From Aquimarina sp. Aq78 (GTDB lineage Bacteria; Bacteroidota; Bacteroidia; Flavobacteriales; Flavobacteriaceae): a stretch of 64,000 bases of DNA. Under the pieces are notes generated by a model that ran no database searches, was not told where the DNA came from, and saw only the letters and a list, made by a program, of their open reading frames with translations. The stretch spans positions 62,001 through 126,000 of the forward strand of contig NZ_OMKA01000014.1 of NCBI RefSeq assembly GCF_900299525.1. Direction: 5' to 3'. Each line of letters starts with the position of its first letter. The stretch's first letter is position 1. The translations under genes and the position numbers were made by a program. Positions 27,202 to 30,405 of this stretch are shown piece after piece.

Positions 27202-27639
27202 TCATGAAATCTCAATCAACCGTTTTGGTTGTACTTTTGCCTCTTCTTTTTTAGGGAGTTTTACCAATAGCACTCCGTTTTCGTATGAAGCTTCAATCTT
27301 GTTACCATTTACCGCTTCTGGCAAGCTAAATGAACGTTTAAATGCATTGTACCCAAATTCTTTTCGGGTGTATTTTCCTTTTTCATCCTTAGTTTCTTTT
27401 TCTGATGTGGTTTCAGAAGAAATGGTAAGCACATCATTATTCAGTTCAATACTAAAGTCTTCTTTAACAAGCCCTGGCGCAGCTAATTCTACCACAAAAT
27501 CTTCATCTGTTTCTTTTACATTAACTGCTGGAGTATTTACACCAATTTTATTGATATTAGATGTTCCTCCAAGCCAATCGGTAGTAAAGAAATCATCAAA
27601 AAGAAAAGGTAATCTGTCTGTTTTTTTTAGTAAACTCAT
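27202..27639 (-). CDS. Small heat shock protein Hsp20/alpha-crystallin
   Basis: 145 residues. N-terminal arm LPFLFDDFFTTDWLGG, then an alpha-crystallin domain at about 35-135 (VNVKETDEDFVVELAAPGLV, then YNAFKRSFSLPEAV and ASYENGVLLVKLPK) and a C-terminal tail. It is an ATP-independent holdase that binds unfolding proteins under heat or redox stress. The upstream region has a probable sigma-54 promoter and palindromic half-sites, see the separate entries. Confidence 0.94.
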   Translation of the reverse strand: MSLLKKTDRLPFLFDDFFTTDWLGGTSNINKIGVNTPAVNVKETDEDFVVELAAPGLVKEDFSIELNNDVLTISSETTSEKETKDEKGKYTRKEFGYNAFKRSFSLPEAVNGNKIEASYENGVLLVKLPKKEEAKVQPKRLIEIS

Positions 27640-27686
27640 TGTATATTTTTTTAAGGTTATTCAAAATTTTAATTACAATGAGTGTA

Positions 27687-27703
27687 TAGCAATTTGGATT
27701 CCA
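27687..27703 (-). promoter_or_regulatory. Probable sigma-54 (-24/-12) promoter for hsp20
   Basis: On the minus strand TGGAATCCAAATTGCTA has GG and GC elements exactly 10 bp apart, as in TGGCAC-N5-TTGCW. It would start the transcript near 27677, about 38 nt before the hsp20 ATG. No TAnnTTTG promoter is evident in this gap. Inference from pattern. Confidence 0.5.
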
Positions 27704-27723
27704 TTTCAAAATAACAGACACTT

Positions 27724-27784
27724 TGTCATTATTTTGTATTCAAATAATGACATTTTGTCAAAAAACATCTCTCCCAGGATGACA
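27724..27784. promoter_or_regulatory. Cluster of TGTCA/TGACA palindromes upstream of hsp20
   Basis: tgtcattattt (27724-27734) pairs perfectly with aaataatgaca (27742-27752); tgaca-N3-tgtca spans 27748-27760; one more tgaca is at 27780-27784. They lie about 50-105 bp upstream of the predicted sigma-54 start, where activator sites are expected. Confidence 0.5.
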
Positions 27785-27800
27785 AAACATCTTAAATAGT

Positions 27801-27832
27801 AAAAACCCGAAAGGATATTCCTTCGGGTTTTT
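27801..27832. terminator. Hairpin terminator after the TerB-like gene
   Basis: aaaaacccgaaagga pairs with tccttcgggttttt with one bulged base and a 3-4 nt loop. It lies about 105 bp after the TerB-like gene stop on the minus strand and in front of the hsp20 control region. Confidence 0.65.
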
Positions 27833-28455: not shown

Positions 28456-28722
28456 ATGGGTTTAACAAACAATGATATTTTTAAAAAGTTAAGGGTTGCA
28501 CATAAATTACGCGATGACGATATTGTAAAAATCTGCGCATTGGTAGATTTTAAAGTTACCAAAAGTGAATTAGGTGCATTTTTCAGAAATGAGAATCATC
28601 CAAAATACATGGAATGTGGTGATCAAATATTACGTAACTTCTTAAACGGGTTAATTATTCATCTTAGAGGTCCGATGCCCGAAAAAAAGAAAAACTCGAC
28701 AAAGGATAAGAACACAAACTAA
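28456..28722 (+). CDS. DUF1456 family protein (YehS-like)
   Basis: 88 residues. TNNDIFKKLRVAHKLRDDDI at the start and FFRNENHPKYMECGDQILRNFLNGL toward the end are the two copies of the family motif shortened to about one repeat plus part; E. coli YehS is about 156 residues with two full copies. So this is a short form. No function is known. It starts right behind a -7 element. Confidence 0.8.
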   Translation: MGLTNNDIFKKLRVAHKLRDDDIVKICALVDFKVTKSELGAFFRNENHPKYMECGDQILRNFLNGLIIHLRGPMPEKKKNSTKDKNTN

Positions 28723-28800: not shown

Positions 28801-30405
28801 ATGCTTACCACAGCCGAAAAACAATTGTATAGAGAAGAGCTGTTCTGTCATTTAGACGGGATTGCTGTAGCTCCTGTTGCTTATTCTCTTTATAAAAACA
28901 ATATTACCGATTATCTAATTAGCAATAAAGAAATATCAGTTTCACAAATTGCAGCATCTCATAAAACCAATGAAGGATATCTAAATATCGCTCTGCGCAT
29001 ACTAAGTGCTCAAGGCTGGTTGGATTATGAAGCAAATAAAGATGATGTAATTATAAAAACCAATGCGCTTTCTAAACTGGCTTTTGATCATTTTTATTTA
29101 TATGAAGAGGTCGTTAACCTATTAGAATATTCTGGCAAATTTCACCCCCGGAAATTTGAATTAGAGCCTTTTCATAAACTCGAACAACTATTCAAAAAAT
29201 ATCAAAACCGCTTTGATTTAACCTTTGAAAAAGACAGTACAATTACTCAAATCCAAGATCAAGTCCTTAAACATATAGAAGGTATTTTGGTTGGACCAAC
29301 TACTGTACATCTTGGTATGGGTGGAATGTTTCATAAATATTTTATGGAAGCTTCTTTTAGCGCTGATGAATACCACAAGTTTCCAGAAAGCTTTGACACC
29401 ATTCTTACATTCCTAAGCCACCTGGGTTGGTTTAGCAAATCAAATAGCAACTATACTTTTACCAATAAAGGATTGTTTTTTGCTAAAAGAGCTTCTGCGT
29501 ACGGCGTAACTGTTTCATACATTCCTATGTTTCGACAAATGGATGCTTTATTATTTGGCGACCCTAATGTACTATGGCCCCTTCAAGCTGATACTGAAAT
29601 ACACGTTGACCGAGAAATGAATGTATGGGGAAGTGGAGGCGCACATACTACATATTTTAAAAAGATTGATGAAATCATCATTAGCCTGTTTAATAAACCT
29701 CTGGATGAGCAGCCCAAAGGAATTCTGGATATGGGATGTGGCAATGGTGCTTTTTTAATTCACCTTTTTGAAGTCATCGAATCCAAAACACTACGAGGCA
29801 AACACTTAGATGACTATCCATTATTTCTGGTTGGAGCAGACTATAATAAAACTGCTCTAAAAGTCACCAGAGCTAATTTAATCCAAGCAGATATATGGGC
29901 CAAAGTTACTTGGGGAGATATTAGCGATCCTGATTTACTAGAAAAAGATTTAAAGGAAAACTATACTATAGCATTAAAAGATTTATTATCGGTAAGAACA
30001 TTTCTAGATCACAATAGAATTTGGAATAAACCAACTTCACAACTGGACACTCCCAGCCAATCTACAGGTGCATTTGCTTATCGGGGAAAACGATTACTTA
30101 ATAGCGATGTCGAACGAAACTTAAAGGATCATTTTAAAAAGTGGGCTCCTCATATTGAAAAATTCGGGTTAATTGTCATAGAATTACATACTATATCTCC
30201 AGAATTAACTGCTAAAAACCTTGGTAAAACTGCAGCTACCGCCTATGATGCTACTCACGGATTTTCTGATCAATATATTTTAGAAATTGATTCTTTTTTA
30301 AAAGTAATTAAAGAAGTAGGCTTACAAAGTGATGATAAGTACTTTTCTAAATTCCCGAATTCTGACCTGGCAACAGTAAGTATTAATTATATTATTGGAG
30401 AGTAG
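28801..30405 (+). CDS. Class I methyltransferase with duplicated N-terminal domain
   Basis: 534 residues. The catalytic domain has motif I ILDMGCGNGAF at 308-318, an acidic residue D347 (LVGADYN) and a FLDHNRIW segment at 401-408, which I recall from AprA-type methyltransferases in polyketide enzymes. Two related winged-helix-like units precede it: HLDGIAVAPVAYSL to LSAQGWLDY (17-76) and HIEGILVGPTTVHL to LSHLGWFSK (158-213). No polyketide genes lie around it. A freestanding relative of polyketide methyltransferase domains is my reading; the substrate is unknown. It ends before a perfect terminator. Confidence 0.75.
   Translation: MLTTAEKQLYREELFCHLDGIAVAPVAYSLYKNNITDYLISNKEISVSQIAASHKTNEGYLNIALRILSAQGWLDYEANKDDVIIKTNALSKLAFDHFYLYEEVVNLLEYSGKFHPRKFELEPFHKLEQLFKKYQNRFDLTFEKDSTITQIQDQVLKHIEGILVGPTTVHLGMGGMFHKYFMEASFSADEYHKFPESFDTILTFLSHLGWFSKSNSNYTFTNKGLFFAKRASAYGVTVSYIPMFRQMDALLFGDPNVLWPLQADTEIHVDREMNVWGSGGAHTTYFKKIDEIIISLFNKPLDEQPKGILDMGCGNGAFLIHLFEVIESKTLRGKHLDDYPLFLVGADYNKTALKVTRANLIQADIWAKVTWGDISDPDLLEKDLKENYTIALKDLLSVRTFLDHNRIWNKPTSQLDTPSQSTGAFAYRGKRLLNSDVERNLKDHFKKWAPHIEKFGLIVIELHTISPELTAKNLGKTAATAYDATHGFSDQYILEIDSFLKVIKEVGLQSDDKYFSKFPNSDLATVSINYIIGE

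Follow-up and report, generated by a model that had tools for sequence, protein, structure and literature searches.

The window analysed here, a 64-kb stretch of contig C17 in a genome of 5.97 Mb, carries on its minus strand a gene for a small heat-shock protein, hsp20, which gave the only HSP20-family match in a search of the whole genome. Its product is 95-98% identical to six named records, four of them from Aquimarina. The gene and the features upstream of it are as follows, with putative elements marked as such:

27202-27639, minus strand: hsp20, small heat-shock protein of 145 aa (PF00011, E 3.2e-23)
27677, minus strand: predicted transcription start, placed by the GG at -25/-24, 38 nt before the ATG
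27689-27703, minus strand: putative sigma-54 promoter (-24/-12), TGGAATCCAAATTGC; TGGhA-N6-TTGh in 73/81 hsp20 upstream regions
27716-27728, minus strand: proximal putative activator site TGACA-AAG-TGTCT, centred at -45 with 12 bp between it and the TGG; columns -24/-22 and -16/-14 conserved
27724-27752, minus strand: 11-bp inverted repeat with a spacer of 7, formed by the right half of the distal site and the left half of the proximal site
27748-27760, minus strand: distal putative activator site TGACA-AAA-TGTCA, centred at -77, 32 bp upstream of the proximal site; columns -56/-54 and -48/-46 conserved
27772-27784, minus strand: possible third, weakly evidenced site TGTCA-TCC-TGGGA, matching at 8/10 positions
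27801-27832: hairpin resembling a terminator, flanked by runs of A and T and separating the upstream gene from the hsp20 promoter region, read by eye

Towards hsp20, the minus strand thus reads TGACA-AAA-TGTCA (27760-27748), TGACA-AAG-TGTCT (27728-27716), 12 bp, TGGAATCCAAATTGC (27703-27689), 49 bp and the ATG. Elsewhere in the window, a gene for an 88-aa DUF1456 protein (28456-28722, plus strand; PF07308, E 1.9e-29) lies between a TerB-like gene and a methyltransferase gene. The latter (28801-30405, plus strand) encodes 534 aa with AprA-type N-terminal (PF23526), winged-helix (PF23589) and MT2 (PF23525) domains, an architecture known from natural-product pathways.

The first-pass annotation of this locus had proposed a sigma-54 promoter with GG and GC 10 bp apart, and this spacing is exact: in TGGAATCCAAATTGC the GG (27702/27701) and the GC (27690/27689) enclose ten bases, giving GG-N10-GC within a TGGCAY-N5-TTGC-like sequence at 27703-27689 of the minus strand. 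Its placement of the start 38 nt before the ATG likewise agrees with the position that we predict, since a GG at -25/-24 puts the start at 27677 and the ATG begins at 27639. Within the window alone, however, such motifs occur at chance level, with four matches to TGGNA-N6-TTGC where 1.7 are expected (a count of four being reached in 11 of 100 shuffles) and seven to TGWCA-N3-TGWCA, one mismatch allowed, against 7.2 expected, so that the window by itself would be weak evidence. Across the genome the bare promoter pattern TGGNAYN5TTGC was found at 85 places, compared with 33 for its reversed control, an excess that is probably for the most part a codon effect and says little; among the matches listed, seven besides hsp20 lie outside long reading frames, the hsp20 place itself being classed as coding in this search owing to an antisense frame. 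It is conservation and placement in related genomes that lift both the promoter and the sites far above chance.

We examined conservation in 81 upstream regions, comprising the window and the best 80 of 98 named loci, picked by similarity to the window's Hsp20 and drawn mostly from Aquimarina, Christiangramia, Mesonia, Leeuwenhoekiella, Salinimicrobium and Zunongwangia, together with a few other Bacteroidota. TGGhA-N6-TTGh was present upstream of hsp20 in 73 of these rows, against a mean of 1.38 and a maximum of 4 in 50 dinucleotide shuffles, and GG-N10-GC lay 45-70 bp before the ATG in 60/81, the window among them. In six of the eight remaining rows CGG replaces TGG and the other positions are retained (L002, L003, L005, L006, L008 and L068, of which L005 also has TTGT), the first five being close relatives, while the promoter is missing in L071 and L075, both from Siphonobacter. 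Judged from this sequence conservation, the hsp20 sigma-54 promoter is very probably real.

Alignment of the 73 rows on the TGG, with positions counted from its T, also resolved the elements farther upstream. The columns that reached at least 1.5 bits fall on the G and the C of each of four half-sites (-56/-54, -48/-46, -24/-22 and -16/-14), with weaker conservation at -21, -19 and -4, and these half-sites define two TGWCA-N3-TGWCA sites 32 bp apart. The annotation had pointed to a TGACA-N3-TGTCA element, which is indeed found at 27748-27760, and had overlooked a second copy of the same type of unit, TGACAAAGTGTCT, at 27716-27728. The perfect 11-bp inverted repeat that it had also reported exists exactly as described (27752-27742 and 27734-27724, spacer 7) but is not the conserved unit: among the 81 rows, arms of 11 bp occur only in the window, L004 having 10 and L002 and L003 having 9. 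The repeat is made up of one half from each of two adjacent sites; what is conserved is the pair of tandem 13-bp TGWCA-N3-TGWCA sites and not the repeat. As for the possible third site, TTGTCA occurs 125-175 bp before the ATG in 27/36 Aquimarina-like rows, which bears on it weakly.

Distances between half-sites and promoter in the hsp20 rows peak at N12/N20 and N44/N52. Two half-sites followed at N11-13 by the promoter (TGG or CGG) were detected in 55/81 rows and in 0/81 reverse complements, and a stricter pattern of site plus promoter had 18 matches on both strands of 614 kb (the window, the 80 loci and five stretches of the window's own genome), every one directly upstream of hsp20. The joint occurrence of GG-N10-GC and TGACA/TGTCA before orthologous hsp20 genes, suggested earlier as a check, is thus positive among close orthologues. 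Moreover, seven rows (L072, L074 and L078-L081 from Mucilaginibacter, and L076 from an unclassified metagenome-assembled genome) carry a site matching 8/10 positions at 22-24 bp from the TGG, and all of them save L076 have a second site, 8 or 9 of 10, at 53-55 bp. This arrangement stands in place of 12 and 44 bp and keeps the distance between the sites. Being close relatives, the seven rows represent about one event; a shift by approximately one helical turn with the spacing retained fits an enhancer whose orientation towards the polymerase matters.

To cover the family evenly, we drew one genome per genus from 60 Flavobacteriaceae genera. HSP20 matches, 70 in all, were found in 46/60 genomes, and 67 upstream regions were read after setting aside three matches: a fragment, the second member of a gene pair and the gene in the window itself. 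TGGhA-N6-TTG preceded 46/67 of these genes; a loose form of the site-promoter unit was present at 24/67, in 24/45 genomes, and both half-sites at 18/67, compared with 0/67 reverse complements. The unit, occurring before a minority of the family's HSP20 genes, therefore belongs to one class of hsp20 rather than to all. Many of the genes without it encode longer proteins (frames of approximately 160 aa) and have the same kind of box with no clear TGWCA pair. These longer HSP20 genes, among them L320, L328, L385 and others, have their own TGG-N9-TTG sigma-54-like box, and in some of the rows TGAAA/TTTCA repeats replace the TGWCA pairs, perhaps for another activator.

In the 5.97-Mb genome, exact TGWCA-N3-TGWCA sites occur at five places: before hsp20, before grpE-dnaJ, before dnaK, at the start of lon and inside one coding gene. 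The reversed control pattern is commoner, with 11 matches on each strand; the sites are thus not enriched in number, and their placement alone stands out; rough odds for this placement, framed post hoc and assuming eight candidate genes, are 1.3e-13 if four of the five places are counted and 6.5e-10 if three are. The unit of site and sigma-54 box stands before grpE-dnaJ as TGACATTATGACA-N12-TGGCAGTACTTTTGC and before dnaK, read in the window's genome alone, as TGACATCCTGTCA-N12-TGGCATAATCATTGA. We set lon apart from the regulon members, as its site lies in the first codons (around position 1500 of L257) and has no sigma-54 box at N12; just before the lon start stands TGACAAAATGACT.

TGGhA-N6-TTGh precedes grpE in 60/60 genera, against a shuffle mean of 0.86, and the site accompanies the sigma-54 box in every one, at N12 in 56 (49 strict, 7 weaker) and at N13 in four (G016, G023, G047 and G052). 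Half-site spacing here peaks at N12/N20, and both half-sites with the promoter at N11-13 were detected in 52/60 genera and in no reverse complement. The groES gene, matched in 59/60 genomes, carries a reduced form: the right half-site with the -24 box (TGNCD-N11..13-TGGCA) is present in 53/59, one of the six misses, G023, having AGTCA at the half-site place, and both half-sites by the hsp20/grpE pattern in 0/59. TGGCAh-N7-G occurs in 58/59 (all but G016), and GG-N10-GC, with the -12 GC, in 27/59. With one half-site, and the -12 GC in 27/59, groES is the weakest member of the set. Its spacing profile has further peaks at N3 (23/59) and around N52 (16), which we tentatively ascribe to a TGGCA-bearing hairpin between secG and groES, and in G035, where the N12 site is missing, a site-like stretch could be seen by eye approximately two helical turns farther out. 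The TGGCAYANTTTYNG pattern matches groES and five other places, one of which, L258, lies in an intergenic region without an evident gene shortly downstream.

The sigma factor itself, RpoN, is encoded in the window's genome and in 60/60 genera. Enhancer-binding proteins (EBPs) with a full AAA+ domain number four in the window's genome: L082 (receiver-AAA, no HTH match), L083 (AAA-HTH, no receiver match, with a PF00158 AAA+ domain and GAFTGA in its translation), and L084 and L085 (both receiver-AAA-HTH). The order of genes at the L083 locus we take, naming them from their translations, to be miaB-EBP-lptE-(unnamed gene)-secG-groES-groEL. Full-length L083 orthologues, with identity of at least 65%, are present in 59/60 genera; the one genome lacking it, G051, is 88% complete and also has no groES match. 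The starts of the EBP and groES matches are 2.0-6.0 kb apart in 56/59 genomes, the two being unlinked in G009, G016 and G023. Among 24 of 30 loci, mean identity to consensus was 0.95 in the HTH, 0.92 in the AAA+ domain and 0.76 in the linker. L083 is like PspF-type receiver-less EBPs in its AAA+ domain, Fis-type HTH, GAFTGA and lack of a receiver match; it differs in scoring 274 bits against the NCBIfam PspF equivalog, below the cut-off of 443.55, in its long AAA+-HTH linker and in the location of its gene with groESL.

A second type of EBP is also found near a chaperone operon. In the window's genome grpE-dnaJ has in its vicinity a receiver-AAA EBP that lacks an HTH (L137:4749-5912, contig C20), and proteins of the same length class, the L082 type, which was assigned by frame length and not by domain search in a comparison of at least 50 genomes, are linked to grpE within 7 kb in 40/50 genomes where both are listed, at distances of 3-7 kb. 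This HTH-less protein appears to be another sigma-54 activator associated with chaperone genes.

These observations point to a common control of the chaperone genes. The presence of the same unit before grpE-dnaJ and dnaK, and of a reduced form before groESL, argues that hsp20 belongs to a sigma-54 chaperone regulon, and we consider it probable, from the comparison of sequences, that hsp20 is transcribed within this regulon via RpoN, with an L083-type EBP as its most likely activator. RNA polymerase with sigma-54 would transcribe hsp20 from the -24/-12 promoter at 27703-27689, and an EBP on the two tandem TGWCA-N3-TGWCA sites, which lie 32 bp or about three helical turns apart and in phase with the promoter, would use ATP to open it. 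The activator would most likely be the receiver-less EBP (AAA+ with GAFTGA loop, linker and Fis-type HTH) from the miaB-EBP-lptE-secG-groES-groEL cluster, and on balance L083 seems the likeliest binder of the sites. From the observed promoter, sites, spacing, conservation and gene linkage we infer binding by an L083-type EBP, dependence on RpoN and control by heat or unfolded proteins; as the EBP has no receiver domain, control could perhaps be exerted by titration of chaperones. The earlier proposal that RpoN and an activator drive hsp20 is thus supported by the presence of rpoN, the conserved site and promoter, and the lack of CIRCE and TAnnTTTG matches described below. It is amended in two respects: the activator sites are the tandem 13-bp units, and hsp20 appears to belong to a wider set (groESL, grpE-dnaJ and dnaK) with a candidate activator. 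Several points weigh against this scheme. EBP enhancers usually lie at about -80 to -150, and the hsp20 sites at -45 and -77, although phased, are nearer than that; the 81 rows were picked by similarity, and in the even draw most HSP20 genes do not have the unit; several close relatives carry CGG; groES has the reduced form; the lon site is a misfit; and the linkage of the EBP to groES may reflect old gene order only, while grpE is linked to another EBP type.

The same promoter and regulon could instead be served by another EBP, either a receiver-AAA-HTH protein such as L084 or L085 bound at the sites or a protein of the HTH-less L082 type acting from solution, and the four full AAA+ EBPs of the genome, together with the proximity of L082-type proteins to grpE, give this alternative some footing. 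L082, however, having no HTH match, should not read a 13-bp site, and in G035 and G058 the L083 type is the only EBP match, yet the grpE unit is kept in its weaker form; at 91% and 80% completeness, however, either genome could have a further EBP outside the assembled sequence. A search of 10-13 kb around each of the four EBP genes found no exact TGWCA-N3-TGWCA site, which counts against the other EBPs and equally against L083. Overall, we regard activation by a different EBP as unlikely.

A regulator outside the EBP class, acting as repressor or co-activator beside the sigma-54 promoter with the EBP placed elsewhere, would account for the constant spacing of N12-N13 and for a site centred at -45, both unusual for an EBP, and the lon site within the coding start would suit an operator. 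Nevertheless, the shift of approximately one turn in Mucilaginibacter hsp20 and the apparent two-turn shift at G035 groES suit a phased enhancer, and the site stands together with a sigma-54 box at hsp20, grpE and dnaK, and as a half-site at groES, making such a regulator rather improbable. It is far less plausible that the motifs are coincidental and that hsp20 depends on a housekeeping promoter or on a repressor such as HrcA, even though neither motif exceeds chance in the window alone. TAnnTTTG, the -7 element of the Bacteroidetes housekeeping promoter, had been named as the alternative start element that would speak against sigma-54; it is absent from the 150 bp before hsp20 in the window row and was found within 150 bp in 5/81 rows, below the 8.3 seen in base shuffles, and is thus not conserved. 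The CIRCE consensus, TTAGCACTC-N9-GAGTGCTAA, lies near the promoter in HrcA/CIRCE heat-shock operons, and neither the window nor the 13-kb groES stretch (L135) contains a match to it with up to three mismatches, while the promoter and sites are conserved.

Sigma-54 is best known for roles in nitrogen metabolism, flagella and envelope stress. E. coli ibpB, like the gene studied here, encodes a small heat-shock protein and has a sigma-54 promoter; in ibpB this promoter is secondary to sigma-32. For Bacteroidota, Carrera-Reyna et al. (PLoS One 2025, PMC12316311), in the portion of that paper available to us, predicted sigma-54 promoters for GroEL, IbpA (COG0071), GroES, GrpE, DnaJ and DnaK, with the chaperone predictions enriched most in Flavobacteriia, and cited a Blattabacterium paper for GrpE and GroES. 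The hsp20 promoter is an instance of this published class-level prediction, and the likeness lies in sigma-54 promoters at the same chaperone families. Their analysis scored the -24/-12 element, EBP specificity being described as not available for every organism covered; an activator site, its spacing and an activator, which we give here, were not met in that portion of the text. A term search of the available part of PMC3162934 returned no mention of groE, Bacteroidetes or Flavobacter, and we found no report of a shared site or activator for the sigma-54 chaperone set in a literature search that covered subscription journals thinly. As far as the literature was searched, the present analysis therefore contributes the site common to these genes, its phasing and a candidate activator.

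Sigma-54 thus appears to drive core chaperones across a whole family of bacteria, and having an operator defined and an activator proposed makes chaperone control in these organisms testable. More tentatively, and with somewhat less than even confidence, we suggest from these comparisons that in Flavobacteriaceae, and probably in other Bacteroidota, a single sigma-54 activator, the groESL-linked receiver-less EBP, may be dedicated to the cytosolic heat-shock response, acting on TGWCA-N3-TGWCA sites that lie unusually near the promoters of hsp20, grpE-dnaJ, dnaK and groESL, and that it may be held inactive by the chaperones under its control. The endosymbionts Walczuchella, Uzinura and Blattabacterium keep RpoN beside RpoD, which the available part of PMC3971599 calls unusual and ties tentatively to nitrogen. 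Sigma-54 control of chaperones offers a reason for this retention, and one dedicated activator, if true, would explain why rpoN persists in highly reduced flavobacterial endosymbionts.
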